This document shows, in pieces, positions 12,512 to 29,209 of a DNA stretch of 64,000 bases. The stretch is taken from positions 1-64,000 of the forward strand of contig SXXW01000004.1 in NCBI GenBank assembly GCA_005791165.1, written 5' to 3'. How positions within the stretch are numbered: position 1 is the first letter of the stretch; every line of letters starts with the position of its first letter. This DNA comes from Cytophagaceae bacterium. GTDB lineage: Bacteria > Bacteroidota > Bacteroidia > Cytophagales > Spirosomataceae. The position numbers were made by a program, and so were the translations under genes. The notes beneath the pieces were generated by a model. It did no database searches and had not been told where the DNA came from. It worked only from the letters and a program-made list of their open reading frames with translations.

Positions 12512-12907
12512 TTAGGGTAAAATAAGGTGAATTTCGTATTTGATTCCACGATCCGCAAGAATGATCACATTGCCGGAATCATCGATGTCTGTTGGCTTAA
12601 AACTAGCCACCAATTCCTTATCTATTTTGTCAAAATCAATGTGAATAACTTGGCAACCTTGAATTTCCACATAAGTTGAAAACTCAAGGTTGTTTTTAGG
12701 TTGTTGGCCTTTTTGCTCAACCTTGATTATCGCCTTAAAGGGACCATCTTCAAACGTGCAGCCAAAATTCGGAGTTTTATACTCGATGTTTTTTTTTGTT
12801 TGTGCAGATGTCTCTGCACAAACACCCATAAAAAAAATGATACATAAGCACTTGATCAAATAATTTGATAGGTAAATCAGTGGGGCTATTTTTACATTAA
12901 TGTGCAT
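12512..12907 (-). CDS. Small secreted protein of unknown function, coupled to the PL-GH92 gene
   Basis: 131 residues; I do not recognise a family. The start overlaps the stop of the upstream PL-GH92 gene as TAATG, a usual sign of translational coupling, which supports this start even though it gives a long hydrophilic stretch before the hydrophobic segment (about 17-34, ending T-S-A-Q). The mature part is about 95 residues, beta-rich, with two cysteines (in N-F-G-C-T-F and I-Q-G-C-Q-V) that could form a disulfide. It could be a small carbohydrate-binding or inhibitor-like partner of the fusion enzyme, but that is speculation. Confidence 0.68.
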   Translation of the reverse strand: MHINVKIAPLIYLSNYLIKCLCIIFFMGVCAETSAQTKKNIEYKTPNFGCTFEDGPFKAIIKVEQKGQQPKNNLEFSTYVEIQGCQVIHIDFDKIDKELVASFKPTDIDDSGNVIILADRGIKYEIHLILP

Positions 12908-15900: not shown

Positions 15901-16248
15901 TTTTTCATTTTTGGTTTTTTGAAATGCTTGTGTCAATAATTCCACATCGTCAATCAGTTCATCCATTTCATCCGAATCAGTGATTCCCTTTATTTCAGGA
16001 TTTTTAACACCATCTTTCCGGATGTACGGTTTCCCATCGGGTTTGCTTGGATCTGGCCACCAATAAGGTCCTTGGCTCATATAATCATGCTTGTCTCCAC
16101 TAGGTGGAATTTGAGTTTTATGCATGACCGTATAAAGCTTATGTAAAGCAATGATACGATCAGCCTTTTTAATCAGCCCGGGATTATCTTTTGCACTAAG
16201 AGAAATAAACGATAGAGTAAAGAATAAGAGTAGTAAATAATTTTTCAT
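12907..16248 (-). CDS. Secreted fusion: alginate-lyase-like domain plus GH92-like alpha-mannosidase domain
   Basis: 1113 residues with a Sec signal peptide (1-19). Residues about 23-355 are an alginate_lyase-type domain with Y-M-S-Q-G-P-Y-W-W-P-D-P, G-R-G-I-G-I-I-E-T, H-N-N-H-G-T (211-216) and G-Y-S (Tyr268). Residues about 365-1110 are GH92-like: D-P-F-L-D-S, R-P-F-G-M-V-N-L-S-P-D-N (about 387-398), E-E-G-N-A-A-Q-W-T-W-F-V-P-H-D (896-910) and G-D-E-D-Q-G (1005-1010). GH92 enzymes are calcium-dependent exo-alpha-mannosidases. The usual N-E-P-S-H segment is N-Q-P-S-I here (963-967), so one expected acidic residue and a histidine are changed, which may alter metal or substrate binding. Nothing suggests a frameshift: both halves are intact and joined in frame. 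A small secreted protein is translated from its stop. Confidence 0.86.
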   Translation of the reverse strand: MKNYLLLLFFTLSFISLSAKDNPGLIKKADRIIALHKLYTVMHKTQIPPSGDKHDYMSQGPYWWPDPSKPDGKPYIRKDGVKNPEIKGITDSDEMDELIDDVELLTQAFQKTKNEKYAAFASQLIKTWFIDPKTKQNPNLNFSQGIPGINTGRGIGIIETRFLIKITDAAEKLQASTHWRKSDHQALKIWFKDFLTWLIESPIGKDEADEHNNHGTYYDVQIVNFAMFLGENELARRQLEITKSRMASQLKPDGSQPHELARTKSFGYSLMNLRGFFYLAEFAQKLNVDLWHYQTPEGASIKKCLDFLIPYIKKDKVWPYQQIAEIHWADSEEILIEGFKAFKDISYSDLAKKVSVANHDKFSPSDLVDPFLDSSNSRWFFFNSTSRPFGMVNLSPDNGVQSDWGAGYRYKSDSIKCFSHIHGWQLSGVPVLPTTGEFKGQLGSGQYGSTFSHAKEIAKPGYHEVYLESYKIKAQLTATTRVGFHKYTYPKADQSQILFDFATFLGPSDTQSAYVKQVGDRRIEGYAIMSPAVRRPKILPVYFVVEFDKPFTKIAAWRKGKLEAFSNEIEGEKIGVYVSFPTDKNEERLMKVAISYVSTEQAGLNLKTEIPHWDFDRVVEESKSEWNEWLGRIQVEGKDEVAKKRFYTDLFHALQGRRIVSDVNGKYLDMTGEKPRTGQIPLKANGQPKFNHHNFDAMWGAQWTINTLWHLVYPEVTESFINSMLMMYDDGGLIPRGPAGGNYTYVMTGASSTPFIVSAYQKGIRGFDIQKAYEGMRKNHFPGGMMSKAGYEHKTFKGGGIEYYMERGYVPHPISNIRYGFHMDGSAQTLEYAYQDFSLAQMSKALGKTEDYQLFMKRSQNFKNIWNPELGWMWIKNLDGNWEKSVDILRYDHGWEEGNAAQWTWFVPHDIKGLANLMGGKDKAVAKLNESFEKASAHDFVSGKSHDKETQEENRRVYLNFGNQPSIQTSYIFNQIGAPWLTQKWTRKVIEKVYSGLSSDYGYSGDEDQGLMGSLAVLMKIGLFSMDGGVAQTPYYDLSSPIFDKIEIKLNPDFYPGKTISIETKNNSQDNMYIQQASFNGKPIKSWISHPDLIKGGKIRYVLGANPNKNFGQ

Positions 16249-16419: not shown

Positions 16420-17649
16420 ATGAAAATCTTTAAAATTCTTATTTTTTTAATGTGTGCACAGTCCATTGCTGCACAGAGCCCAAATGCTTTTAAAAAGGAA
16501 ATAAAATTAGAACTGAATGAGATTTTGTCCTACTGGGAAAAGAATAGTGTGGATGTCGAGAAAGACGGATTCTATGGAGCTGTTGACGTGAATAATGTAC
16601 CTAATACGCAGGCCGATAAAGGTCTAATATTGAACAGCAGGATTCTTTGGACATTCTCAGCTGCCTATCAAATGGACCCCAAACCAGGCTATAAAAAATT
16701 GGCCGACCGAGCATTTAATTACCTGAATACCTATTTTTGGGACGCTAAAAACAAAGGTGCTTATTGGTCCGTGAAATCAAACGGCACACCATCCGACACC
16801 CACAAACAAGTATATGCAGAGGGATTTATGTTGTATGCCTTTGCTGAATATTATAAAATTTCGAAAAACCCTCAAGCCTTAGAAAAAGCAAAAAGCATCT
16901 ATCAGATCTTACAAACCAAATGCAAGGACCTGAAAAACGGGGGATATTATGAGGCTTATAATGAGGCTTGGATGCCGATTGAAGACAAGACGATTACCGA
17001 AGGAAAAGCAGATCAAAAAAAATCCATGAATACACATCTGCATCTGATTGAAGCCTTTGCGAATTTTTATCAGGTGTATCCCGACAAAAACCTAAAAAAA
17101 GAAATTGAAAACATGCTTTCTATTTTTCACGAAAAAATTATTGCCAATGGCAAGACGCAAACTTTATTTTTCACAGATGATTGGTCCCCAAGGTCGGAGG
17201 CCGTTTCTTTTGGTCATGATATTGAATCTGCTTGGCTTTTATTAGAAACTGCAGAAACTATAAAAAACCCTAGTTGGATCCAAAAAATGAAAACGCTGGC
17301 GGTCAATATGGCCATTGAAGCAGAAAAAGGAATTGATCCAAAAGATGGGGGCATGTGGAATGAGAAAAACCAAGGACATATTAATACTCAAAAACATTGG
17401 TGGCCACAAGCAGAAGCTATGATCGGATATTACAATGCCTATCAGATCACTGGAAATAAAAAATTCTACGCATTGAGTCTAGGAAGTTGGTCTTTTATTA
17501 AAGCCAACTTAAAATCCACATCAGGCGAATGGCTTTGGGGGATCGATGAAAAACAAGAGCCTATGATTCGCAATGGAAAAATAGGCCCTTGGAAAGGCCC
17601 TTACCACAATGGAAGAGCCTGTTTGGAAATATTAAAACGAATCCATTAA
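16420..17649 (+). CDS. AGE-family sugar 2-epimerase (cellobiose/mannobiose 2-epimerase-like) with signal peptide
   Basis: 409 residues of (alpha/alpha)6-barrel type. The motifs match cellobiose 2-epimerases: N-S-R-I-L-W (Arg74), M-N-T-H-L-H-L-I-E (His206), F-G-H-D-I-E-S-A-W (His266), W-W-P-Q-A-E-A and W-K-G-P-Y-H-N-G-R (His396). These correspond in context to the substrate-binding arginine and the essential histidines of that group. Such enzymes convert glucose to mannose (or the reverse) at the reducing end of a disaccharide, normally in the cytoplasm. Here the N-terminus is a Sec-type signal peptide (about 1-19, ending I-A-A-Q), so the protein should be exported, consistent with the secreted GH92 domain next door. 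It ends in a 4-base overlap with the convergent MR/MLE gene. Confidence 0.85.
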   Translation: MKIFKILIFLMCAQSIAAQSPNAFKKEIKLELNEILSYWEKNSVDVEKDGFYGAVDVNNVPNTQADKGLILNSRILWTFSAAYQMDPKPGYKKLADRAFNYLNTYFWDAKNKGAYWSVKSNGTPSDTHKQVYAEGFMLYAFAEYYKISKNPQALEKAKSIYQILQTKCKDLKNGGYYEAYNEAWMPIEDKTITEGKADQKKSMNTHLHLIEAFANFYQVYPDKNLKKEIENMLSIFHEKIIANGKTQTLFFTDDWSPRSEAVSFGHDIESAWLLLETAETIKNPSWIQKMKTLAVNMAIEAEKGIDPKDGGMWNEKNQGHINTQKHWWPQAEAMIGYYNAYQITGNKKFYALSLGSWSFIKANLKSTSGEWLWGIDEKQEPMIRNGKIGPWKGPYHNGRACLEILKRIH

Positions 17650-18932
17650 TCAAAAAATGGCACTCCTTTAACCGCGTATTTGCGCATCGCTTCAATATTG
17701 ATGTCAACGCCTACACCTGGTTCATTCGACAATGGAATAAATCCTTTATCTAACCATTCTCCTTTGTGAATCACAATCTCTTTATACATAGGATCTGTAT
17801 GGAAATACGCTTGCCATTCCAAGATTAAGAAATTCGGTACAGAAGCACATACGTGACAAGCAGCCATCGCGCCTAAAAATGAGGACACCATATGCGGAGC
17901 AAAAGGCACATAATACAAGTTTGATAAATTGGCAATGCGCTGACCTTCACCCAAACCACCCGCTTTTTGTAAGTCTGGCATGATGATGTCAACTGCACCT
18001 ATTTCCAACATCTCCCTAAATCCATAAGCTAGATACTGGTTTTCACCCGCACAAATAGGTGTGGAAGTGGAGTCGGTGATTTTTTTATAGGCCTGTATAT
18101 TCTCGGCTGGAACAGGTTCCTCAAGCCACATTAGATTTAATGGCTCCATCATTTTGGCTACTTTCTCACCTGTAGGTGCATCGTATTTTCCATGCATGTC
18201 GACACATATGTCGATATCGGGGCCCACTTGCTTTCGGGCAGCGGCGATTTGTTCATACATACGTCTTAATTCAGCCGGACTTGCTGTCCAATTGTATGCA
18301 TCATATTTATTCGGATCATTCGCTTGATCTATGTCAAATTTAATTGCATTAAATCCCATATCCACCGCCTTCTGAGCCGCATCCGCAAAGTCAGAAGGTT
18401 TAGGTAATTTGGTTTGATATAAGGCCGTGTCCATATAGACACGGATTTTATCTCTGAATTTTCCACCGAGTAACTGGTATACCGGCAAACCCAAAGCTTT
18501 CCCAGCCAAGTCCCAAAGGGCACTTTCCACAGCCGTCAGAACAGCTACATACATGCCCGACTGAGCACCTGCAAAAAATCCACTTTTGCGTATATCCTCA
18601 AATAAACGATGGACATTTAAAGGGCTTTTGCCAATGATCCTTTGGCCCATCATTTTAACTAAATGATAGGTTCCGGGAGTGGCATCTGCGCCTTCTCCTA
18701 CTCCATAAATACCTTGATTAGTAAAAATTTTAACATATAAGTGGTAGCCTCCACGGATATACCCACATTTAACATCCGTGATTTTCAAGTCGGCCGGGGC
18801 CGACATTTTTGGATTGTCACTAATGGCCTCCTCATACCGACCACCCCAGTGAAACATGGATCCGGACATTAAGGCCGTTGCAGCCAAAGATCCATTTTTA
18901 AAAAACTCTCTTCTATCTGATTTATTTTTCAT
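17646..18932 (-). CDS. MR/MLE enolase-superfamily sugar-acid dehydratase-like protein with Tat signal (copy 1)
   Basis: 428 residues. The N-terminus carries D-R-R-E-F-F-K before a hydrophobic stretch, a twin-arginine export signal. The enolase-superfamily capping domain and barrel follow. Metal ligands are Asp245 (V-D-M-H-G), Glu271 (W-L-E-E-P) and Glu297 (A-G-E-N-Q). A K-F-D-I-D strand carries Lys198, and His247 and His347 (A-P-H-M-V) are placed like the acid/base histidines of galactonate- and mannonate-type dehydratases. The likely reaction is dehydration of an aldonic acid to a 2-keto-3-deoxy acid; racemase or cycloisomerase activity cannot be excluded. Last gene of the minus-strand operon, 12 bases after the RraA-like gene. 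Confidence 0.88.
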   Translation of the reverse strand: MKNKSDRREFFKNGSLAATALMSGSMFHWGGRYEEAISDNPKMSAPADLKITDVKCGYIRGGYHLYVKIFTNQGIYGVGEGADATPGTYHLVKMMGQRIIGKSPLNVHRLFEDIRKSGFFAGAQSGMYVAVLTAVESALWDLAGKALGLPVYQLLGGKFRDKIRVYMDTALYQTKLPKPSDFADAAQKAVDMGFNAIKFDIDQANDPNKYDAYNWTASPAELRRMYEQIAAARKQVGPDIDICVDMHGKYDAPTGEKVAKMMEPLNLMWLEEPVPAENIQAYKKITDSTSTPICAGENQYLAYGFREMLEIGAVDIIMPDLQKAGGLGEGQRIANLSNLYYVPFAPHMVSSFLGAMAACHVCASVPNFLILEWQAYFHTDPMYKEIVIHKGEWLDKGFIPLSNEPGVGVDINIEAMRKYAVKGVPFFD

Positions 18933-18944
18933 TTTCTTACATTT

Positions 18945-19886
18945 TTACCAAGTCCTACCTTTCAAAAATTCTTGTATTTGAGCCTTAGGGACTGGCAGTT
19001 TGTCTATTTTGTCATTTAACCATTTGGAGAAATCTTTTTCGATTTCCTCGCTCCAGCGATTGTCAATTTGACCCGGAGTATATTTTTGCTCGCGTAAACG
19101 CTGATGCCCAAACATATCCCTCAAACGAACAATCTCGGAGGTCTTTACCACTTTTTCCAATAAATGTGGGGGGATAAAAATCACTCCGCCATCTCGACCT
19201 AAAACCACATCACCTGGAAGAACCGTTGCTTTTCCAATACGTGTGGGGGTGTTTATCCCCACCAAAGTCGTGTTCAACTCTCCGTCAGGATTGTTTAAAT
19301 GATGAGAAGGATGATAAGTCCGAAAAAAGGAGGTGAATCTGCCTAATTCCTTCAAGCCATTGATGTCACGAACAGCGCCATTATACACAATGCCATTGCC
19401 CGTTTTAGCATATATGGAATTTCCCAAATTATCGCCAATCGTCGGACCATCTTCGTGTGCCCCAAATTGGTCCACCACATAAACATCGCCTTTAACTAGC
19501 ATGTCAATGGGCCAGGAATTTTGTGACTTAATTCTTCCGTCTTTGGTATGACCACGGTCGTCGATCACTCGTTGGATATCAGGACGACCCGGCATAAAAG
19601 TAGCGGTTAGCGCACGACCGACTAACACACTGTCGGGGTTTATGGTTTGCCAACCGTCTTCATAGTTATGCTTAAAGTTTGCATTTTTCAATACAGCCCA
19701 GGCCTCCTCTAATGTGACGGATTTAAGCCTTTGCAATAGAGCATCCGAAACTTTTGGTCGACCATCAGCAAAACGTTCCCCATTCCATAAAGGAGTTAAA
19801 AAGAGCATTTCCTCCTTGGAAATTTGTTGGCCCCACGCGAACGTCGACACCAAGACCATTGCGAAAATTCCGATTATTTTTTTCAT
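18945..19886 (-). CDS. RraA/HMG-aldolase-family protein with Sec signal peptide (copy 1)
   Basis: 313 residues from the ATG at 19886; an in-frame TTG 12 bases upstream would overlap the preceding gene and is less likely. A signal peptide (about 1-19, ending A-W-G-Q) precedes an RraA-like fold: I-G-D-N-L-G-N-S-I-Y-A and Y-N-G-A-V-R-D-I-N-G. G-x-x-R-D is the signature whose arginine and aspartate serve pyruvate and metal binding in HMG/CHA aldolases. P-G-D-V-V-L-G-R-D-G-G-V-I-F-I-P closes the domain. Family members are metal-dependent aldolases or decarboxylases for 2-keto acids, so cleavage of the product of the adjacent MR/MLE enzymes is plausible. Only 5 bases separate it from the upstream paralogue. 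Confidence 0.87.
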   Translation of the reverse strand: MKKIIGIFAMVLVSTFAWGQQISKEEMLFLTPLWNGERFADGRPKVSDALLQRLKSVTLEEAWAVLKNANFKHNYEDGWQTINPDSVLVGRALTATFMPGRPDIQRVIDDRGHTKDGRIKSQNSWPIDMLVKGDVYVVDQFGAHEDGPTIGDNLGNSIYAKTGNGIVYNGAVRDINGLKELGRFTSFFRTYHPSHHLNNPDGELNTTLVGINTPTRIGKATVLPGDVVLGRDGGVIFIPPHLLEKVVKTSEIVRLRDMFGHQRLREQKYTPGQIDNRWSEEIEKDFSKWLNDKIDKLPVPKAQIQEFLKGRTW

Positions 19887-19891
19887 CCGGA

Positions 19892-20821
19892 TTACCAATT
19901 TTTATCTTTCAAAATCTTGGCTAATTCCGCTTTAGACATCGGACGCTTGTCGGGATTTTCATCAGCCCATTTAACAAAATCAGCCTTGATATCATCCGTC
20001 CATTTTTGATCTATTTGCCCTGGAGTATATTTTCCTTGCTTCAAACGTAAATGTCCGAATGCATCTGTCATGCCTATAAACTCAGCGGTCGAAATTACCT
20101 TTTCGGCTAAATGAGCAGGAATAAAAATAACACCTTCTTTTTTGCCTAAGATCAAATCCCCTGGCATCACCGTGACACGACCAATGCGAATAGGGTAATT
20201 AATTCCCGTCAGCATTTCATTTTTAATAAATGAAGGATCCACCCCACGTACAAAACCTACAAAACCATCAATGGCCTCAAGTCCTTCTAAATCGCGGATA
20301 CCGGCGTCAAATACAACACCCGTTTTTGATTTTACATAAATCGAGTTTCCTAAATTATCCCCGATCAACGTACCGTCGATAATCTTGCCGTAGCCATCCG
20401 CTACATACACATCATTCTCTTGTAATAAATCGATAGGCCAGGAATTAGAAGCACCTTTCCGATTTTCTGATTTACCCTTTTCCATGATTGGCGTATTAAC
20501 ATCTGGGCGCATGGGCATGTATTGCGCCGTAAGGACACGGCCAGCTAAGGGCTTATTGGGATTAATAATATGCCAGTTTCCTTCGAATTGACTTTCATAC
20601 CCTTCGCCGCGCATCACGCCCCAGGCTTCCTCAATCGAAATATTGGCTAATCTTTTCACTAAATCATCTGAAACTTTTGGACGACCATCCGGGAAACGCT
20701 CCCCCTTCCATTGTTGGGAGTAAGTCATAATCATCTCTTTAGGCATTTGTATATTTTGACCCAAAGAAATAAACGACAAGCTGCAAGCCAAGCAGCTCAA
20801 TACAATTGCTTTAATTTTCAT
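19892..20821 (-). CDS. RraA/HMG-aldolase-family protein with Sec signal peptide (copy 2)
   Basis: 309 residues, a diverged paralogue of the next gene in the operon; both share the P-L/Q-W-x-G-E-R-F-x-D-G-R-P-K-V-S-D segment near the N-terminus. The signal peptide is about 1-21 (ending S-L-G-Q). Family motifs are L-I-G-D-N-L-G-N-S-I-Y, D-A-G-I-R-D-L-E-G and P-G-D-L-I-L-G-K-K-E-G-V-I-F-I-P. The G-I-R-D signature is intact, so aldolase-type chemistry is possible. Two diverged copies in series suggest that they form a hetero-oligomer or act on two different keto acids. A terminator-like hairpin lies between this gene and the upstream MR/MLE gene. Confidence 0.87.
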   Translation of the reverse strand: MKIKAIVLSCLACSLSFISLGQNIQMPKEMIMTYSQQWKGERFPDGRPKVSDDLVKRLANISIEEAWGVMRGEGYESQFEGNWHIINPNKPLAGRVLTAQYMPMRPDVNTPIMEKGKSENRKGASNSWPIDLLQENDVYVADGYGKIIDGTLIGDNLGNSIYVKSKTGVVFDAGIRDLEGLEAIDGFVGFVRGVDPSFIKNEMLTGINYPIRIGRVTVMPGDLILGKKEGVIFIPAHLAEKVISTAEFIGMTDAFGHLRLKQGKYTPGQIDQKWTDDIKADFVKWADENPDKRPMSKAELAKILKDKNW

Positions 20822-20844
20822 GATATAAATAGGTTTATGTGTAG

Positions 20845-20874
20845 ATAAAAAAGGGTGATGCGAACATCACCCTT
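20845..20874 (-). terminator. Intrinsic terminator or attenuator within the MR/MLE-RraA operon
   Basis: Perfect 10-bp arms (20851-20860 and 20865-20874) enclose CGAA, which reads UUCG in the minus-strand RNA, followed by a run of U. It sits just after the MR/MLE stop and about 30 bases before the RraA-like start. As all flanking genes are co-directional it could lower rather than stop expression of the three downstream genes. Confidence 0.78.
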
Positions 20875-20881
20875 GTAAAAT

Positions 20882-22327
20882 TTAAGACCATTCGCGATCC
20901 CATGAATCAATCTTGGTCCAATCATCGGTAGGTGCAAAGAACATTTCACCTGATTTCAAGTGGGCTTTGACAACCTCTTCATTTAATTCGACGCCTAATC
21001 CTGGCTTGTTTGGAACTTTGACAAAACCTTTATTGAAAATTGGCTTTTCGATTCCAGTCACTAAATCCTCCCACCAAGGAACATCGAATGAATGATGTTC
21101 AAGCGCAACAAAATTCTCCGTTGCCGCAGCACAATGAATATTAGCCATAAAACAAATCGGAGAACCCGCAAAGTGCATTGCCATAGGAACTCCATTTTCT
21201 TCGGCATAATCACCTATTTTCTTCGTCTCCAAAATACCGCCTGAACTAGCTAAATCTGGTTGAATCATATCCACCGCGCGTCCGTCGATCAACTTAATAA
21301 ACTCTTCTTTCAAGTAAATATCCTCACCGGTTAACGTTGGCGTATTGATTGCCTCCGTAATTTGACGCCATTGATCCGTATACTGCCAAGGTATCATATC
21401 TTCTAGCCAAGCTAATTGATATTTCTCTAGTGCATTTCCTAAACGAATCGCAGTATTTACATCAAAATGACCAAAATGATCCGCTGCAAGTGGGGTATCA
21501 TACCCAATCACACTTCGAACTGTACCCACATAATCCGCTAAATACTGAATGCCTTTATCGGTTACTTGGATGCGTGTGAATGGATGCTTAGTCCAGCTAT
21601 ATGAACGAGCATTTCCCTTCGCAGATGGATTATTCCCCCATTGCTTCTTTACATCCCAATTTTTTCCTCCCACTAAAGCCCCAGGAATATCAGCTAATAA
21701 TTGAATACCAAAATCCATTTTCAAAAATGTCAAACCTAAATTTTGACGTTCTTTCATTTTCTTAGCAAATTCGGCTGGATCTGCGACCTCAGGAGTATCT
21801 CCATAAATACGGATATCATCACGGTACTTACCTCCTAGCATTTGATATACGGGAACACCAAAAGCCTTTCCAGCTAAATCCCACAACGCCATTTCCACTC
21901 CGCAAACACCTCCTGCAGCTCTACCTTGGCCTCCGAATTGCTTGATGATTTTGAAAATCTTCTCAACATTACACGGATTTTGACCCATCAATCTGCTTTT
22001 CAGCATCATGGCATATTTAGGACTTGCACCATCGCGCACCTCACCCCAGCCAACTAATCCTTGGTTTGTATCAATACGAATCAAGGGACAAGTCATAGGA
22101 GCCTTATCAATGACAGCAATACGAATGTCTGTAATTTTAAGTTCAGAGGGATTACTCGATTTGTTAACTTTCTGAGTAATATACTCCATTTCCTTTTCAG
22201 GATCATGATCAAAAATCATCCCCAATGACAATCCACCCAAGGCAGAATTACGAAGGAAATTTCTTCTTGAGTTTTCTTGAGCTTTGGCCTTATCCTCCGC
22301 TCTAAAACAATTTACAAAATCTTTCAT
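20882..22327 (-). CDS. MR/MLE enolase-superfamily sugar-acid dehydratase-like protein with Tat signal (copy 2)
   Basis: 481 residues. A long N-terminal region holds N-S-R-R-N-F-L-R (19-26) followed by a hydrophobic run, a clear twin-arginine signal. The catalytic barrel shows Lys203 in L-K-M-D, metal ligands Asp283 (A-D-H-F-G-H), Glu309 (W-L-E-D) and Glu335 (G-E-D-I-Y), and His395 in M-H-F-A-G-S-P-I. This ligand set fits a galactonate/gluconate-type sugar-acid dehydratase. It differs from copy 1 by an insertion of about 40 residues after K-M-D and a longer C-terminal tail, so the two are not recent duplicates and probably act on different acids. It follows susD by 24 bases and is the first enzyme of the operon. 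Confidence 0.88.
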   Translation of the reverse strand: MKDFVNCFRAEDKAKAQENSRRNFLRNSALGGLSLGMIFDHDPEKEMEYITQKVNKSSNPSELKITDIRIAVIDKAPMTCPLIRIDTNQGLVGWGEVRDGASPKYAMMLKSRLMGQNPCNVEKIFKIIKQFGGQGRAAGGVCGVEMALWDLAGKAFGVPVYQMLGGKYRDDIRIYGDTPEVADPAEFAKKMKERQNLGLTFLKMDFGIQLLADIPGALVGGKNWDVKKQWGNNPSAKGNARSYSWTKHPFTRIQVTDKGIQYLADYVGTVRSVIGYDTPLAADHFGHFDVNTAIRLGNALEKYQLAWLEDMIPWQYTDQWRQITEAINTPTLTGEDIYLKEEFIKLIDGRAVDMIQPDLASSGGILETKKIGDYAEENGVPMAMHFAGSPICFMANIHCAAATENFVALEHHSFDVPWWEDLVTGIEKPIFNKGFVKVPNKPGLGVELNEEVVKAHLKSGEMFFAPTDDWTKIDSWDREWS

Positions 22328-22351: not shown

Positions 22352-23869
22352 TTATTTATGCCACCAAACTTTAGTATCTAAATCGTCTGCGCCTTGATTT
22401 GCAATGGCCGCTTTTACATTCACTGAATTCACTGAAATTTCAGAGTTTGGATACGTCATGCGATTGATGAAATCTCCTTTGATAGCCTTACCTGAGAAAG
22501 GATTAGGCGTCAATTTAGGAAAACCCGTACGACGGAAATTAGCAAATGCCTCAGGTCCATTTAAGAAACATGAAATCCAATATTGCGTATTGATTTGCTC
22601 CAAGGCCGTTGTGGTGCTAAATGGATTTGCAGCTAAATATGCATCAACAGCAGCAGATGGAACCGATGAGTTAACATCCATATCTCCTAATTGGCTCATG
22701 TGCGCTTTCACGCCCGCCTCATAATAATCTTTGGCACTTCCTGTAACCCAACCTCTTGATACTGCCTCAGCTATCAATAAATTAGTTTGAGAAGCTGTAA
22801 CAAGAAAAGCAAGAGCTGTTGTTTTATTCATACGAGTTCTATCCGCTTGACTAAAATCATAAAAACTTGCGAGACCTAAAGTCTTCACAGGTCCGCTGAT
22901 CGAAGAGTTGTCATATCCAAAAGGCATTCCAATTTGAACCGCAGGATCAATTACACCCCTAGCAGCTGTTTGTTGAGTTCCTGAAGTAGCACCCACATAC
23001 CTTACTGCAATTGACCTTAATCTCGGATCATTTGTTTTCTTTAAATGGTCAACGAATGGAGCAGCTAGGTAAAAATTGTTCGCTTCAGTAGCGTTTAACA
23101 ATTGGCCAATGCTATTTAAATAATTAGCATCATGGCGAATAACCACATTATCCGCATTGGTCGTGATAACACCTCCGGCAACGGCTTTAGCAACCAATGA
23201 TTGCGCTTGAGTTGCATCCACTTTAGCTAAGCGAAATCCGATGCGAAGCAAAAGTGAATTTCCAAATTTCTTCCATTTGGCCACATCACCCCCAAAAAGA
23301 ACATCAGCTGTTTCTCTAGTTTTAGCCGCATCTAAGGCAGCCACTGCATCAGAAATATCTTTGATAATTCCAGCATAAATAGCTTGTTGTTTATCGTATT
23401 TAGGATAAACTTTTTGATCGGTATACCCTTTTCCAGCTTCTGTGTATGGAATATCCCCATAAGTATCCGTTAACACTAAAAAGGCATAGGATTGTAAAAT
23501 CTTAGCCATGTTAACCAAATTAGTTCTGGCAGGATCTTTGGTTGTAGCGATCACATCATAGGTATTTCGAATCACTGAACGGTAATAACGCTGCCATATT
23601 GCTTGCGTATAATCACGGTTATCTTGATTAAAATTAGCCCCGGCTAAAACCCCAGAGTTTGGAGAAATCATTTGTTGGACTATCCCCATTTCATATTGAA
23701 CGGTTGGCGATGGAGGAGTCGTATTAATTACGGCATTATTTAATGCAAAAACAGGGTTAATGGCTACTGCCGCTGTTTTGTTCACATTCAACTCGTCGAA
23801 ACCCGCATCACAAGCATTGAGTCCTAATAACCCACATGCTGAAAATAAAATTATTGCTATCTTTTTCAT
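22352..23869 (-). CDS. SusD-like outer-membrane lipoprotein (SusD-like_2 type, second PUL)
   Basis: 505 residues with a lipoprotein signal peptide; the lipobox ends L-N-A-C at Cys20. The sequence fits the second SusD group (SusD/RagB lipoproteins with D-E-L-N-V-N near the N-terminus, L-x-D-x-Y-G-D-I-P-Y at about 135-145 and W-K-K-F-G-N-S-L-L-L-R-I-G-F-R-L), which differs from the SusD of the first pair. It should bind glycan or another ligand at the cell surface as the lid of the upstream SusC, with 22 bases between the genes. The following MR/MLE gene is on the same transcript. Confidence 0.95.
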   Translation of the reverse strand: MKKIAIILFSACGLLGLNACDAGFDELNVNKTAAVAINPVFALNNAVINTTPPSPTVQYEMGIVQQMISPNSGVLAGANFNQDNRDYTQAIWQRYYRSVIRNTYDVIATTKDPARTNLVNMAKILQSYAFLVLTDTYGDIPYTEAGKGYTDQKVYPKYDKQQAIYAGIIKDISDAVAALDAAKTRETADVLFGGDVAKWKKFGNSLLLRIGFRLAKVDATQAQSLVAKAVAGGVITTNADNVVIRHDANYLNSIGQLLNATEANNFYLAAPFVDHLKKTNDPRLRSIAVRYVGATSGTQQTAARGVIDPAVQIGMPFGYDNSSISGPVKTLGLASFYDFSQADRTRMNKTTALAFLVTASQTNLLIAEAVSRGWVTGSAKDYYEAGVKAHMSQLGDMDVNSSVPSAAVDAYLAANPFSTTTALEQINTQYWISCFLNGPEAFANFRRTGFPKLTPNPFSGKAIKGDFINRMTYPNSEISVNSVNVKAAIANQGADDLDTKVWWHK

Positions 23870-23891: not shown

Positions 23892-26800
23892 CTAAAATTT
23901 AACATTCAAATTAAATCCTAAACTTCTAGTCGTTGGCAATCCAGTTGATTCCATACCCACTAAGTTATCTGAAGAATATCCAAATGACTCAGGATCAATA
24001 TTATCCACCCATTTTTTAAGGATTAATACGTTGTTAGCAACAAAACTTAATTTAACCCCCTTAATTGGTGATTTAGGGTTTAAGTGCTTGGTGAAATCGT
24101 ATCCAGCTGTAATTTGACGTAATTTCCAATAACCACCATCATATATAACAGGCTCAATTAATGCTTGGGAACGAACTACTTCCCAGAATGGTTGAACACC
24201 TGCCTTAGCTGTATTTTGTCCACCCTGTGCATTCACTCCGTCCGCCACTACACCACCTTCTCTACCTTCTAAGGTCATTTTATGCAATCCGTGACGTACT
24301 GCATTGAAATTTGTTCCCGAAAGCATCATGTTTCCTAATTTGAAATCAATTAAGGCTGATAATGAAATTCCCTTATAATTAAACGTGTTTGTAATACCAC
24401 CCACATACTTAGGAATAGCACTTCCAAAAGAAATCAAATCAGGAGTTCTTAAAGCGATACCGTTAGCCCCAAAAACTCTTTTCCCATTAGCATCACGTCT
24501 GTATCCAAAGCCATAAATTTGGCCCATTTCTTGGCCTACTACCTGACGTAGTTCACCATTAAACACGTGAGTACCCACTGTAATTCTTTCTCCAGGCTTA
24601 TCGGTCAATAAACTTAATACCTTCGTGGTATTATAAGAACCGTTTAAGGTTAAATCCCATTGGAAATCAGCCGTTTTGATAGGCACCAAATTCAATAACA
24701 TTTCAACTCCTTTGTTCTCACTTTTTCCACTATTGATTAGGGAGTTGGTGAAGCCTGACGCATCGGAAATTTGAGCAGAAACGATTTGGTCGCTGGTCAA
24801 CTTCTGATAGACGGCCATATCTAAGGTTACGCGGCTATTGAACATTTTTAATTCTAAACCGATTTCAGATTCACGCGTTCTCATCGGTTTCAAACCTGCG
24901 TTAGGCACCACGTTTCCTTGTCCACCTCCAACGGGTTGCAAAGCACCAGCAGGATTAGCAAATAAGTTAGGGTTGATACCATAAAACAAATTGTTTGAAT
25001 AAGGAGCCACATCCGTATCTGATCCCACTTCTGCCACAGCAGCTCTTAATTTACCAAAGGTCAACCAAGAAGGCATGTTGTCAAACGCTTGCGAGAATAC
25101 ATAACTACCTGAAACGGAAGGATAGAAAATGCTTCTATTCGCTGGAGAAAGAGTAGAGAACCAGTCGTTACGTGCCGTTACATTTAAAAATAAATAATTT
25201 CTAAATGAGATTTCACCTGATCCATACACTGAATTAACAGATCTTTCACTTAATCCATAAACTGGATCTTTCACCCGACCATTCATGACAGTGTATAAAT
25301 CTCTAACCACGAAATCCACTACTTGCGTACTATTCAAGTCGGAGCGACGATACATTTGATTACCACCGGCAGTTAAATTGAAATCAAAATCACCAAAGGA
25401 CTTAGTAGCTGAAATCAAAATATCGGTATTGGTTTCTCTAAATCTTCTTGATTCTTGTGTAAATGTTCCATTCACAAATCCTGCAGGAGCAGGGCCAATA
25501 GATGCATGTCCAGTAGGGAAGTTGTTATAATCTTGGTCACGAGACCAATAATCTTGACCAACACGACCTTGAACGAATAACCAAGGTAGGATGTTGTATT
25601 TAGCAGATATATTTCCGAAAATACGATCCCTTCTAATGTTTTGAAATTGCTTCTTTAAAGTGAAATAAGGGTTCGTTCTATTTCTAAAACGAGAATACAC
25701 AAACTCATCCCCGTTGGCATCTGTCGCTTTTTGCTCTAACAAATCAAAAGGCATCGAGTTAGCCATGTTATAAACGGCCGTTGGGATCGAGTTATCTTGA
25801 TTCGCAATGTTAGGTGGGTTCTTGTTATACTCATTAGAATAGTTGACATTTCCCGCTACTGAAAGCTTAGATGAAAGATCATAAGCAAATCCTAAATTGA
25901 TCGTTTTTCTATTAAACGTATTGTTTGAAACAATACCATTGTTATCCATATTGGAAATAGACATATTAAATCCTCCTTTATCGCTATTGCTAGCAATACT
26001 TACTGTATTTGTTAAGTTCATTCCTTTTACAAAGAACTTATTAATGCGGTCATAAACAGGCGCATAAGGAACACTAACCCCATCAAATAACACTTGGGTC
26101 ATTCCTGGTTGAAATTTCTCACCAAAAGACCACTGACCTGAAGTCGGGTTAGCCGTTGTAGGGCGCAAACCACTTTCTCCTTGGCCATATTCGTATTGAT
26201 AATCTGTGAAATCCAAAGGTGTTTCATTCGTATAGTTCATATTATATGAAACTCCGATACCATTCGTTTTACCCCTAGATTTAGTTGTAATCATTAAAAC
26301 CCCATCCTTAGCACGAGAACCGTATAAAGCAGCTGCCGTTGCACCTTTCAATACCGTCATTGACTCAATATCATCTGGATTTATACTGGACAAACCATCA
26401 CCTCCATCAGAGGTATTTCCTCCTCCACGAACTCCAATTGAGTTATCTGAAGCATTATTACCTGGATTAGTTCCAAAGTTGGTATTATCGATAGGCACCC
26501 CATTAATAACAATCAAAGGTGAGTTTTGACCGGAAAAAGAAGATTGACCCCTGATACGAATTTTAGACGTACCTGCAGGTCCAGTTCCTAAAGATGAAAT
26601 GTTTACACCGGCAATTTTACCTTGTAAAGCATTCATGAAGTTAGGAGATCTATTCTCTGTAATAGCTTCAGGAGTGATCGTCGTGGTTGCATAACCTAAT
26701 TTTTTCGACTCCTTTTTAATACCCAAAGCAGTAACGACTACTTCATCTAAGGCTGTGGTTTCTTCAGAAAGAGAAACATTAATCACAGACTGAGCACCTA

Positions 26801-27065
26801 CGCTTACTTCTTTTTTCACAAAACCAACAAATGAAAAAACTAAGGTTGCATTAGAGGGTGCATTAATGGAATACTTACCATTTGCATCCGTAGATGTACC
26901 TTGTGAGGTACCTTTTACTGCAACTGAAACACCTGCAATAGCTTCATTTCCTTTTGCAGAACTGACCATTCCAGTAATTCTGGATTGGGCAAAAATCAAA
27001 TTTGGCAACATAATGGCCAAACCTAACAATAGCCTTGTTAGTTTCTTTTTGTAATTTTTTATCAT
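23892..27065 (-). CDS. SusC/RagA-family TonB-linked outer-membrane transporter (second PUL)
   Basis: 1057 residues. Signal peptide (about 1-26, ending I-F-A-Q); carboxypeptidase-D-like regulatory domain (about 28-105, I-T-G-M-V-S ... A-G-V-S-V-A-V-K-G-T and F-S-F-V-G-F); plug with V-V-T-A-L-G-I, L-Q-G-K-I-A-G-V-N-I, R-I-R-G-Q-S-S-F, P-L-I-V-I-N-G-V-P and L-K-G-A-T-A-A-A-L-Y-G-S-R-A-K-D-G-V; then a beta-barrel ending F-N-L-N-V-K-F. It is not a close copy of the first SusC. First gene of the minus-strand operon, divergent from an AraC-type regulator across about 210 bases, so that regulator probably controls it. Confidence 0.97.
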   Translation of the reverse strand: MIKNYKKKLTRLLLGLAIMLPNLIFAQSRITGMVSSAKGNEAIAGVSVAVKGTSQGTSTDANGKYSINAPSNATLVFSFVGFVKKEVSVGAQSVINVSLSEETTALDEVVVTALGIKKESKKLGYATTTITPEAITENRSPNFMNALQGKIAGVNISSLGTGPAGTSKIRIRGQSSFSGQNSPLIVINGVPIDNTNFGTNPGNNASDNSIGVRGGGNTSDGGDGLSSINPDDIESMTVLKGATAAALYGSRAKDGVLMITTKSRGKTNGIGVSYNMNYTNETPLDFTDYQYEYGQGESGLRPTTANPTSGQWSFGEKFQPGMTQVLFDGVSVPYAPVYDRINKFFVKGMNLTNTVSIASNSDKGGFNMSISNMDNNGIVSNNTFNRKTINLGFAYDLSSKLSVAGNVNYSNEYNKNPPNIANQDNSIPTAVYNMANSMPFDLLEQKATDANGDEFVYSRFRNRTNPYFTLKKQFQNIRRDRIFGNISAKYNILPWLFVQGRVGQDYWSRDQDYNNFPTGHASIGPAPAGFVNGTFTQESRRFRETNTDILISATKSFGDFDFNLTAGGNQMYRRSDLNSTQVVDFVVRDLYTVMNGRVKDPVYGLSERSVNSVYGSGEISFRNYLFLNVTARNDWFSTLSPANRSIFYPSVSGSYVFSQAFDNMPSWLTFGKLRAAVAEVGSDTDVAPYSNNLFYGINPNLFANPAGALQPVGGGQGNVVPNAGLKPMRTRESEIGLELKMFNSRVTLDMAVYQKLTSDQIVSAQISDASGFTNSLINSGKSENKGVEMLLNLVPIKTADFQWDLTLNGSYNTTKVLSLLTDKPGERITVGTHVFNGELRQVVGQEMGQIYGFGYRRDANGKRVFGANGIALRTPDLISFGSAIPKYVGGITNTFNYKGISLSALIDFKLGNMMLSGTNFNAVRHGLHKMTLEGREGGVVADGVNAQGGQNTAKAGVQPFWEVVRSQALIEPVIYDGGYWKLRQITAGYDFTKHLNPKSPIKGVKLSFVANNVLILKKWVDNIDPESFGYSSDNLVGMESTGLPTTRSLGFNLNVKF

Positions 27066-27276: not shown

Positions 27277-28164
27277 ATGAAAAATTTTGCGTTGACATTT
27301 CCATTTAATGATTGTAGTGCTCACTTCCCTTTTATTGAGCATTTTAGCTTTCAGACCGTTGATTCAAACAAGTCCAACCCGGTCTATTTACCTCAAGGAA
27401 TAGGTATTCGTATGTTCTATTTTAAAGATGGGATTTTCGAAATTAGCGTTGATGGAAATAGGCAAACCATGCTTCCGGGCGACTGCTTAGTTGTATGTCC
27501 TTGGGAAAATGTTGAAATTATTCCCAATCGAATCAGACGTTCATCCTTCTTTCACCTCATTATACGGACTAAATTTTTTGATGCAGATCAAGATTTAGAG
27601 TTTGGATATTGGTCTAAAATTTCCAAATATGACCAAATGGAAATTGGCGAAATTTTCAAAAATTACCATAAATTCAAAATCAATAAATCAGATTTCTTGG
27701 CCAAATTATTTGTACAATTGACCAATGAAATATTTGTGCACGAAATGAGTCAAAATGAAATGGTCATTCATATAATCGACCAAATCATGATTTTGTATGC
27801 ACGCGAAGCTCAAAAGTCTAGTTTAAAAACGTCAGAAAATACAACTGTGAGTCAAATTATTGAACAAAATATAACGAAAGATCCATTGCATCATTGGTCT
27901 GTGCCTGAGATGGCTCAGATAGCCCAACTAGGAATTACGGCATTTAGTGAGCGCATGAAAATGGAAACGGGATTAAGTCCGATCAACTTTTTAATCAAAA
28001 TACGCATTAATATTGCCATGAATTTAATGGCAACTTATAATTATAAAATAGGCGATATTGCCTATGAAACTGGCTTCTATTCTCCACAACACTTTTCGTT
28101 AACGTTTAAAAAAATGACGGGTGTCAGTCCGCACAAATACCGCAAAACCTATTATGAAAAATAA
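27277..28164 (+). CDS. AraC-family transcriptional regulator
   Basis: 295 residues. The N-terminal half is a cupin-like sensing domain (M-L-P-G-D-C-L-V-V-C-P-W). The C-terminal 100 residues form the double helix-turn-helix of AraC proteins: W-S-V-P-E-M-A-Q-I-A-Q-L-G-I-T-A-F-S-E-R-M-K, then the second motif I-G-D-I-A-Y-E-T-G-F-Y-S-P-Q-H-F-S-L-T-F-K-K-M-T-G-V-S-P-H-K-Y-R. It is cytoplasmic. Transcribed away from the second susC and overlapping the carboxylate transporter gene, it most likely responds to a breakdown product of that locus and activates it; the ligand is unknown. Confidence 0.94.
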   Translation: MKNFALTFPFNDCSAHFPFIEHFSFQTVDSNKSNPVYLPQGIGIRMFYFKDGIFEISVDGNRQTMLPGDCLVVCPWENVEIIPNRIRRSSFFHLIIRTKFFDADQDLEFGYWSKISKYDQMEIGEIFKNYHKFKINKSDFLAKLFVQLTNEIFVHEMSQNEMVIHIIDQIMILYAREAQKSSLKTSENTTVSQIIEQNITKDPLHHWSVPEMAQIAQLGITAFSERMKMETGLSPINFLIKIRINIAMNLMATYNYKIGDIAYETGFYSPQHFSLTFKKMTGVSPHKYRKTYYEK

Positions 28165-29209
28165 CTTTAAATTATTATCCATTTCTGGGGCGACCATTAT
28201 ACTCGTCGGACTTATTTTTTCAGATACTCCCTGGGCTGGAATTTTATGGATTATTGGCGTTGCGCTAATTGCCATCTCCACCCATACCAAAGAGTCACTG
28301 AAAGGCTTCTCATTTACCTTATGGATCGTTGCAGCTGTGGTTTTGACACTACAATTCCCTACCCCGTTCGTTGGATATGGAGATATAAAATTTAAAATAT
28401 TGATTATCCCATTGCTCCAATTAATCATGTTTGGGATGGGATCTACCATGCAGATTTCAGATTTCCAAGAAGTTTTGAAGTCTCCAAAAGCTGTGGCTTT
28501 AGGTGTATTTTTCCAATTTTCTATTATGCCACTTGTGGGATGGGGCCTTACAAAAGTCTTTACTTTCCCATCAGAAATATCAGCTGGCATCATTTTAGTA
28601 GGTTGCATGCCTTGCGGATTAGCATCAAACGTCATGTCGTATTTAGCTAAGGCCAATGTAGCTCTTTCACTCACGCTAACGTCCATCGCCACCTTCATTG
28701 CGCCCCTTTTAACTCCCTTGTTGATGAAAAATCTAGCCGGCCAATTAATTGAAATTGATCTAATAGCGATGATTTGGGAAATAAGTAAATTGATCTTAAT
28801 CCCCATTGTTTTAGGGGTTATTTACAACCGAATCATTGGAAATAAATGGGCTTGGTTTCAAGAGCAATTACCGCTCATCTCCATGATCAGTATTGGATTG
28901 ATCATCATTATTATCACCGCTAATGGCAGAGATGCTCTTATTTCAGTTGGTCCACTGCTTGTTTTGGCTTGTTTTTTACATAACATCATCGGCTTTATTT
29001 TAGGATATTGGGGAGGTAGACTCACCAAACTTCCAGAAAAAGATTGTCGAACAATCGCCATTGAAGTAGGATTACAAAATGCAGGCCTTGCCTCTGGCTT
29101 AGCTATGGCGATGGGAAAAGTGGCGACGGTTGGCCTACCTGCAGCTATTTTTGGTCCTGTGATGAACATCAATGGATCCAGCTTGGCCAATTATTGGAAA
29201 AATAAATAA
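28154..29209 (+). CDS. BASS-family (SBF-like) sodium-dependent carboxylate transporter
   Basis: 351 residues from the ATG at 28154, which overlaps the regulator gene by 11 bases; a GTG 33 bases earlier is the alternative. Most of the protein is hydrophobic, with 9 to 10 predicted membrane helices. Family segments include F-G-M-G-S-T-M-Q-I-S-D-F, V-G-C-M-P-C-G-L-A-S-N-V-M-S-Y-L-A and E-V-G-L-Q-N-A-G-L-A-S-G-L-A. BASS proteins (bile acid/pantoate/pyruvate type) move organic anions with sodium. In this context the cargo may be pyruvate or a 2-keto-3-deoxy acid from the locus; this is inference. Probably co-transcribed with the AraC gene. Confidence 0.88.
   Translation: MKNNFKLLSISGATIILVGLIFSDTPWAGILWIIGVALIAISTHTKESLKGFSFTLWIVAAVVLTLQFPTPFVGYGDIKFKILIIPLLQLIMFGMGSTMQISDFQEVLKSPKAVALGVFFQFSIMPLVGWGLTKVFTFPSEISAGIILVGCMPCGLASNVMSYLAKANVALSLTLTSIATFIAPLLTPLLMKNLAGQLIEIDLIAMIWEISKLILIPIVLGVIYNRIIGNKWAWFQEQLPLISMISIGLIIIIITANGRDALISVGPLLVLACFLHNIIGFILGYWGGRLTKLPEKDCRTIAIEVGLQNAGLASGLAMAMGKVATVGLPAAIFGPVMNINGSSLANYWKNK

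Follow-up and report, generated by a model that had tools for sequence, protein, structure and literature searches.

A stretch of 64,000 nucleotides from a Cytophagaceae bacterium (contig SXXW01000004.1; hereafter, the window) carries a minus-strand operon in which two enolase-superfamily proteins of the MR/MLE family with twin-arginine translocation (Tat) signals, MR/MLE-1 and MR/MLE-2, and two RraA/HMG (4-hydroxy-4-methyl-2-oxoglutarate)-aldolase-like proteins with Sec-type signals, RraA1 and RraA2, are encoded behind susC and susD. The MR/MLE and RraA genes are coupled, often with an SBF-family transporter gene alongside, and their signals are conserved in relatives across Bacteroidota, a conclusion supported by the comparisons below. 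Judging from the sequences, all four proteins are very probably exported, and we lean slightly towards a pathway in which sugar acids would be dehydrated in the periplasm and the products cleaved by RraA, with a short acid being imported. If this is true, part of sugar-acid catabolism runs outside the cytoplasm in a major polymer-degrading phylum, which would change the reading of polysaccharide-utilization loci, of cross-feeding (through leakage of pyruvate and aldehyde) and of RraA-family annotation, and would give exported RraA and SBF proteins that lack a known function a role open to direct testing.

Organization of the operon

The source genome (2.57 Mb, 42 contigs, 84% complete; the window lies on contig C17) encodes the operon in the order susC-susD-MR/MLE-1-RraA1-RraA2-MR/MLE-2, with intergenic gaps of at most 60 bases. 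The first gene (23892..27065, minus strand, as are all genes of the operon) encodes a SusC/RagA TonB-linked outer-membrane protein (TIGR04056, 621.1 bits, above the cut-off) and is followed by genes for a SusD-like surface lipoprotein (22352..23869; PF12771, 288.7 bits), MR/MLE-1 (20882..22327; 481 amino acids), RraA1 (19892..20821; 309 amino acids), RraA2 (18945..19886; 313 amino acids) and the galactonate-dehydratase-like MR/MLE-2 (17646..18932; 428 amino acids). Divergent to the operon, on the plus strand, are genes for an AraC-family regulator (27277..28164; PF12833) and an SBF/BASS-family inner-membrane transporter (28154..29209; PF01758, 137.3 bits versus a cut-off of 24.3), the latter starting with the ATG at 28154 and thus overlapping the end of the AraC gene at 28164. 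An earlier, sequence-only reading of the window had placed the four enzyme genes correctly, within 17646..22327 and in one operon behind susC/susD; the unit extends beyond those coordinates, to susC and susD themselves and to the divergently transcribed AraC and SBF genes.

RraA2 is 45% identical to RraA1 and, as read from the sequence, likely starts at the ATG at 19886 rather than at the TTG at 19898 given in the list of open reading frames (ORFs). Among the matches listed, the nearest named relatives of RraA1 come from one Cytophagaceae metagenome-assembled genome (MAG) and two Spirosoma fluviale MAGs. Between MR/MLE-1 and RraA1, a hairpin followed by T's (20874-20851; a consensus match only) might reduce read-through.

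Export signals

MR/MLE-1 carries a Tat motif and an uncharged stretch at residues 20-39 (22211..22270, minus strand; NSRRNFLRNSALGGLSLG from residue 19), and the N-terminus of MR/MLE-2, MKNKSDRREFFKNGSLAATALMSG, is also of the Tat type. The N-termini of RraA1, MKIKAIVLSCLACSLSFISLGQ, and RraA2, MKKIIGIFAMVLVSTFAWGQ, resemble Sec signals, in the case of RraA1 also in the light of the N-termini of its relatives. Signals in proteins longer than 150 amino acids, including those of the window, were scored with a rough rule based on regular expressions and hydropathy rather than with SignalP. The Tat rule fitted 61 of the 62 MR/MLE-1 and all 19 MR/MLE-2 proteins (80/81 overall), the sole miss being a 3' fragment, and the Sec rule fitted 83 of the 86 RraA1 and 17 of the 18 RraA2 proteins (100/104 overall); of the four misses, one ORF lacks its N-terminus and the others have a long ORF start or n-region. 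Some proteins fitted both rules, namely, 5 MR/MLE-1 and 6 MR/MLE-2 proteins that also fitted Sec and 3 RraA1 proteins that also fitted Tat. The Tat motif is more than a chance match, as R21, R22 and F24 of MR/MLE-1 do not vary among 24 aligned MR/MLE members. The Tat and Sec signals assigned to the four proteins by the sequence-only reading recur across two unrelated protein families; the Sec rule is permissive, given that 317 of 753 unlabelled genes fit it (34 fit Tat). The source genome contains TatA and TatC genes. In both MR/MLE genes, the codons of the signal differ from those of close relatives mostly by synonymous changes (for MR/MLE-2 versus locus L037, 11 synonymous and 1 non-synonymous), and those of RraA2 change more freely, as signal peptides may (1 synonymous and 4 non-synonymous versus L037).

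None of the 50 control proteins encoded in the same loci (12 AraC, 13 FGGY, 7 PfkB, 13 alcohol dehydrogenases and 5 IlvD) fitted either rule; 3 of the 12 short-chain dehydrogenases/reductases and all 37 SusD proteins fitted Sec. Among 29 phylum-wide MR/MLE controls, the Tat rule fitted two, L146, which is a member of the exported MR/MLE family, and L151, and the Sec rule fitted L146, L150, L161 and L163, of which L150 looks exported by eye. Three of the 29 RraA controls (L142-L144) belong to the exported RraA family; of the other 26, 7 fitted Sec and 1 fitted Tat, with the proviso that some controls picked up by the rules are likely cytosolic (Sec, L117, L161 and L163; Tat, L116) and that L136, L141, L149, L154 and L157 are possibly wrong ORFs. 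An export signal is not a general trait of the MR/MLE and RraA Pfam families, same-family controls being mostly devoid of signals, and by eye the glucarate-dehydratase-like MR/MLE protein of the source genome itself has none. Six of the seven Sec-fitting RraA controls, joined by L138 on inspection by eye, make up a second, separate clade of exported-looking RraA proteins (L133-L135 and L137-L140), the gene neighbours of which differ.

Active sites and family membership

Both MR/MLE proteins contain N- and C-terminal MR_MLE domains scoring above the Pfam cut-offs (PF13378/PF02746 for MR/MLE-1), and the RraA-like domain PF03737 was identified in RraA1 (61.7 bits) and RraA2 (63.5 bits) above the cut-off of 24.5, confirming the families named in the sequence-only reading. 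Motifs were tallied in proteins longer than 290 amino acids (60 MR/MLE-1, 19 MR/MLE-2 and 102 RraA). The MR/MLE metal ligands are conserved without exception (D in 79/79, E in 79/79 and E in 77/77 plus 2 gaps), as is the strand-7 His (77/77 plus 2 gaps); in MR/MLE-1, D283, E309, E335 and H385 are invariant where present. D-x-H occurs together with the strand-7 His in 19/19 MR/MLE-2 proteins; D-x-H on strand 3 and His on strand 7 presumably play catalytic roles in the D-galactonate-dehydratase-like subgroup. The D-X20-R-D signature, which we take to be the metal-binding/catalytic motif of RraA, is kept in 98 of the 102 RraA proteins, including the two from the window. The metal ligands and RraA motif, described earlier as intact, are indeed so in all four proteins.

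The NCBIfam models that best match the MR/MLE proteins are those of aldonate dehydratases, with the galactonate dehydratase model scoring 243.8 bits for MR/MLE-2 and 203.8 bits for MR/MLE-1, both below the cut-off of 311. For both, the closest solved sequence is 2qq6 (328.8 and 199.8 bits), which is named MR/MLE-like only, and the closest solved sequences for RraA are 5x15 (72.7 bits) and 3noj, an HMG/4-carboxy-4-hydroxy-2-oxoadipate (CHA) aldolase (44.5 bits). An assignment of RraA1 and RraA2 as RNase E regulators was rejected on the basis of their scores (27.9 and 20.9 bits, respectively, versus a cut-off of 136) and Sec signals. According to the available text of PMC5065237, most RraA homologues retain one of two metal-binding motifs and are likely class II pyruvate aldolases. 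The exported RraA may catalyse either retro-aldol cleavage or dehydration/decarboxylation.

Coupling of the MR/MLE and RraA genes in Bacteroidota

Eighty of the compared loci are the best 80 of 565 confirmed matches and are thus biased towards RraA1. A less biased search of 295 genomes found RraA1-like proteins in 7, one of them the genome of the window; of the 10 loci taken from the other six, 7 carry MR/MLE. Trees were built from 44 of 91 sources (the window and L026-L115) plus controls, excluding the RraA controls L116, L136, L141 and L143 and the MR/MLE controls L146, L149, L154 and L157; since rows were labelled exported by family and not by rule, a clade attests to the unity of a family rather than to the export of each row. 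The exported RraA family forms one clade of 57 rows with 100/100 support (the bootstrap being not fully settled), within which RraA2 is a subclade of 15 rows, also with 100/100 support. MR/MLE-1 (30 rows) and MR/MLE-2 (14 rows) form one clade each, and the two are sisters (98 in the SH-like approximate likelihood ratio test; quick tree). RraA1 adjoins MR/MLE-1 in 51 of 60 cases, and RraA2 adjoins MR/MLE-2 in 16 of 19. The MR/MLE and RraA distances are correlated (Mantel r 0.634, 55 pairs, 0/999 permutations as high), shared species history being a further contributor.

A tblastn search of 90 loci (L026-L115) detected RraA in 90, MR/MLE in 67, SBF in 55, SusC in 36, SusD in 36, FGGY in 11, amidohydrolase in 11, AGE in 10, RidA in 8, SelA-like in 5, PQQ (pyrroloquinoline quinone) dehydrogenase in 4 and SMP-30 in 4. 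Counts based on ORFs, derived from a mechanical caller that favours the longer of overlapping frames and that missed the L110 amidohydrolase and the L089 and L090 RraA (recovered by tblastn), cover 89 RraA loci: SusC in 38, SBF in 56 and AraC in 12, with a same-strand run shared with RraA by MR/MLE-1 in 46, MR/MLE-2 in 18 and SBF in 44.

An RraA-MR/MLE-1 pair of the same family is present on a contig of a Phycisphaerae (Planctomycetota) MAG (L115), where transfer or mis-binning is possible. Two copies are apparently disrupted: MR/MLE-1 of L040 is split over two ORFs, and a piece of RraA in genome G014 (L010/L016) is interrupted by a single in-frame TGA.

Variant loci and the Tat/Sec division

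In 11 of the 90 loci, MR/MLE is lacking and an amidohydrolase and/or DgaE-like (SelA-like) gene is present; 10 of these loci contain SBF and 6 contain a RidA-like gene. In L070 and L082 (Dyadobacter) and L051 (Pseudoflavitalea), genes for RidA-like, SelA-like, amidohydrolase, RraA and SBF proteins form one run, and L027 has the same run without RidA. The L070 amidohydrolase scores 445 bits with PRK09237 (cut-off 371), the L070 DgaE-like protein, one of six SelA-like ORFs, 172.4 bits with the DgaE-family ammonia lyase model, below the cut-off of 385.3, and the L070 Rid-like protein 65 bits, below the cut-off of 106. The run in L051 also includes PQQ-dehydrogenase-family and SMP-30/gluconolactonase-family genes, and the FGGY kinase of L041, the only one classified, is nearest to gluconokinase (406 bits, below the cut-off of 649). 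Going by their predicted families, the variant genes would offer another route to a 2-keto-3-deoxy acid, which would then enter the same RraA-SBF core. The DgaE-type pathway of enterococci is cytosolic and has as its third partner an aldolase of the 2-keto-3-deoxy-6-phosphogluconate (KDPG) type, which is a main reason to regard RraA as a putative aldolase.

The proteins that stand in for MR/MLE in the variant loci mostly bear signals. The Sec rule fitted 10 of 12 variant amidohydrolases and the Tat rule none; of the six SelA-like ORFs, three fitted Tat and three fitted Sec, and of the six RidA-like proteins, five fitted Tat and all fitted Sec. These counts argue against the earlier suggestion that metal loading of the MR/MLE enzymes before export is the main reason for the division between Tat and Sec: RraA, from a metal-dependent aldolase family, has Sec signals; the amidohydrolases, metallo-enzymes by family, mostly fit Sec; and the RidA-like proteins, which are not known to bind a metal, mostly fit Tat, although they fit Sec as well.

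A putative periplasmic sugar-acid pathway and its alternatives

In the pathway that we favour by a small measure, acidic sugars or oligosaccharides would pass the outer membrane through SusC/SusD; MR/MLE enzymes exported by Tat would remove water beside the carboxylate, yielding 2-keto-3-deoxy acids; the Sec-exported RraA would cleave these into pyruvate (or another short 2-keto acid) and an aldehyde; and the short acid would enter the cell through the SBF/BASS symporter, whose gene accompanies that of the divergent AraC regulator. The two MR/MLE-RraA pairs may correspond to two substrate ranges. Gene order, signals, metal sites and coupling are observed, and the reactions, substrates and transporter cargo are what we infer from them. 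The window SBF protein is nearest to the PanS model (242.1 bits, below the cut-off of 400). In the available part of PMC10645422, the reported cargoes of BASS members are pantoate, pyruvate, glycolate and 2-keto acids, and ASBT-NM is reported to have bound pantoate, not ketopantoate. We consider possible, stopping just short of favouring it, a broader scheme in which this would be a widespread, ATP-free periplasmic pathway of Bacteroidota, with an exported RraA aldolase and SBF importer served by interchangeable exported front ends (Tat MR/MLE for hydroxy acids; deacetylase, DgaE-like ammonia lyase and Rid for amino-sugar acids), PQQ dehydrogenase and lactonase feeding some loci, and only the short acid and aldehyde entering the cell.

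Several observations weigh against the favoured pathway. The NCBIfam Tat model TIGR01409 matches 16 of the 24 aligned MR/MLE members at E<=1, and MR/MLE-1 of the window, at 15.7 bits versus a cut-off of 16.7, has a weak Tat signal. MR/MLE-1 has D-H-[FYW]-G-H in place of D-x-H, a non-standard base region; D-X20-R-D is broken in 4 of the 102 RraA proteins; and full-length equivalog names had to be rejected for all four proteins, which score below the NCBIfam cut-offs. As to gene content, 12 of the 90 loci have no MR/MLE, SelA-like or amidohydrolase gene, some being short contigs and others spanning 19-21 kb, and 35 of the 90 have no SBF. SelA-like genes occur in only 5 of the 90 loci, and 2 of the 6 SelA-like ORFs fit neither signal rule, one being a locus-end fragment and the other, in L051, having RRxV. 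Furthermore, the nearest characterized RraA relative found, FlDet from an alginate-using Flavobacterium, is a dehydratase/decarboxylase that turns 2-keto-3-deoxy-D-glucarate into alpha-ketoglutaric semialdehyde (available text of PMC8563752). Thus, of the exported two-step breakdown from aldonic acid to pyruvate and aldehyde put forward in the sequence-only reading, export and the pairing of the enzymes draw support from the conserved signals, MR/MLE-RraA coupling and frequent SBF, whereas the aldolase role of RraA and the aldonic acid as substrate are putative, given the FlDet chemistry and the non-standard base region of MR/MLE-1.

What a periplasmic route would add is hard to see, given the cytosolic routes already present in the same genome. 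These include a glucarate-type set (the signal-less glucarate-dehydratase-like MR/MLE, an HpaI/GarL-like aldolase, a tartronate-semialdehyde-reductase-like protein and a GntP-like transporter, all below cut-offs) and a uronate set (glucuronate isomerase, tagaturonate reductase, a KDPG aldolase above the cut-off and a 2-keto-3-deoxygluconate-kinase-like protein); the glucarate-type and hexuronate-type genes have no obvious signals (L185, 5678-12747; L187, 8211-12778). The exported set would therefore be additional to ordinary routes. The same genome has two PQQ dehydrogenase genes.

FlDet suggests an alternative that we regard as rather unlikely, in which the exported MR/MLE would yield a 2-keto-3-deoxy aldarate from which an FlDet-like RraA would remove water and CO2, the resulting semialdehyde being imported. 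FlDet performs this chemistry within the RraA family, and its reported N-terminus resembles, by eye, a signal-less group of controls (L122-L124, L127 and L128; N-terminus from the available text of PMC8563752). Of the controls outside the exported RraA family, members of this group match RraA1 best, with 24-26% identity and E values of 2e-15 to 6e-20, and sulfatase, GH88-like and alginate-lyase-domain genes lie near the window operon. However, identity is about 25%, and the exported RraA proteins fall outside the FlDet-like group, in their separate 100/100 clade, which joins that group weakly (77/83) in a tree that does not contain FlDet's own sequence; nor do the gluconokinase-like neighbour and the DgaE-type variant suggest a second carboxylate on the substrate. 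It is improbable, in our view, that MR/MLE instead acts on carbohydrate chains, abstracting a proton at a uronate or aldonate end group and eliminating the neighbouring sugar in a lyase-like, periplasmic beta-elimination, with RraA handling the freed acid. The shared operon with susC/susD, the carbohydrate-active neighbours and the non-standard site of MR/MLE-1 are consistent with such a step, as is, by our inference, enolase-superfamily chemistry; yet the alginate-lyase-domain and GH92 neighbours are seen again in no loci other than L036-L038, which are close relatives, and we know of no enolase-superfamily polysaccharide lyase.

A hydroxy-diacid route, with MR/MLE as a tartrate-type dehydratase producing oxaloacetate and RraA as an oxaloacetate decarboxylase producing pyruvate for import by SBF, appears quite improbable. 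The MR/MLE family includes tartrate dehydratases, and both the RraA-fold protein 3noj and weakly matching NCBIfam models are named aldolase/oxaloacetate decarboxylase, but the models that MR/MLE matches best are those of aldonate dehydratases, and the gluconokinase-like FGGY neighbour and position behind susC/susD point to sugar acids. That the signals are unused, the proteins being cytoplasmic or merely membrane-anchored and serving an ordinary cytosolic pathway, would agree with the subthreshold TIGR01409 score of the window MR/MLE-1 and with the Pfam Tat model, which at E<=1 matched 0 of the 24 MR/MLE members (one other member, L046, reached 19.9 bits, under the cut-off of 22.7). We hold it very improbable, given the invariant twin arginines and F in these same 24 members, the Sec-like signals of nearly all RraA proteins, the Tat genes of the source genome and the mostly synonymous change in the MR/MLE signal codons.

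Comparison with known systems

The window MR/MLE proteins share domains, D/E/E ligands and the strand-7 His, and MR/MLE-2 also D-x-H, with the D-galactonate, D-gluconate and D-mannonate dehydratases of the MR/MLE family. Unlike these, they have a Tat signal, score below all NCBIfam cut-offs and are partnered with RraA rather than with a KDPG-type or HpaI-type aldolase, and MR/MLE-1 is without D-x-H. The RraA proteins share the RraA-like domain and D-X20-R-D with the HMG/CHA aldolase 3noj and the RraA-fold class II pyruvate aldolases and differ from 3noj in their Sec signal, length (about 310 amino acids versus 238 for the 3noj chain) and low similarity. Dehydration of a sugar acid followed by cleavage of a 2-keto-3-deoxy acid, as proposed here, would parallel the non-phosphorylative Entner-Doudoroff pathway of the De Ley-Doudoroff type, from which the window enzymes differ by their export signals and the transporter of the SBF family often encoded alongside. 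To our knowledge, the known versions of that pathway are cytosolic.

FlDet, from Flavobacterium sp. UMI-01, is likewise an RraA-family protein of Bacteroidota, with a 2-keto-3-deoxy sugar acid as its substrate, but is 237 amino acids long, has a signal-less native N-terminus and is encoded beside an alginate lyase gene (available text of PMC8563752). The periplasmic 3-keto-glycoside route (LacABC and DUF1080), also found in Bacteroidetes, similarly combines proposed periplasmic sugar chemistry with a signal-peptide protein, whereas its reactions are glycoside oxidation and hydrolysis, and neither MR/MLE nor RraA is named in the available text of PMC9007349. The window SBF protein belongs to the same family as PanS, ASBT-NM and plant BASS1/2/5/6 (available part of PMC10645422) and has PanS as its closest NCBIfam model, differing in that it scores below the cut-off for PanS. 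A published description of the gene set was not found in the literature searched, which mostly excluded subscription papers and preprints, so that this is no proof of absence; the set is not described in the available parts of PMC10444878, on MR/MLE-rich SAR202 genomes, or PMC12584681, in which an RraA protein is among the benzoate-degradation candidates of Dyadobacter.

Genomic neighbourhood of the operon

The window also carries genes for sulfatases and GH88-like, alginate-lyase-domain, GH92 and AGE epimerase proteins, neighbours that hint at a sulfated uronic-acid glycan as the source of the substrate, although the alginate-lyase and GH92 genes are shared with L036-L038 only. A minus-strand gene at 12907-16248 encodes a protein of 1113 amino acids in which an alginate-lyase domain (residues 41-318) is fused to the N-terminal and catalytic domains of GH92 (367-1104). 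L036 encodes a family member of equal length, and relatives occur in L037-L038. Convergent to MR/MLE-2, a plus-strand gene (16420-17649) encodes an AGE/cellobiose-2-epimerase-like protein with a Sec-like N-terminus, and AGE relatives are present in 11 of the 89 loci.

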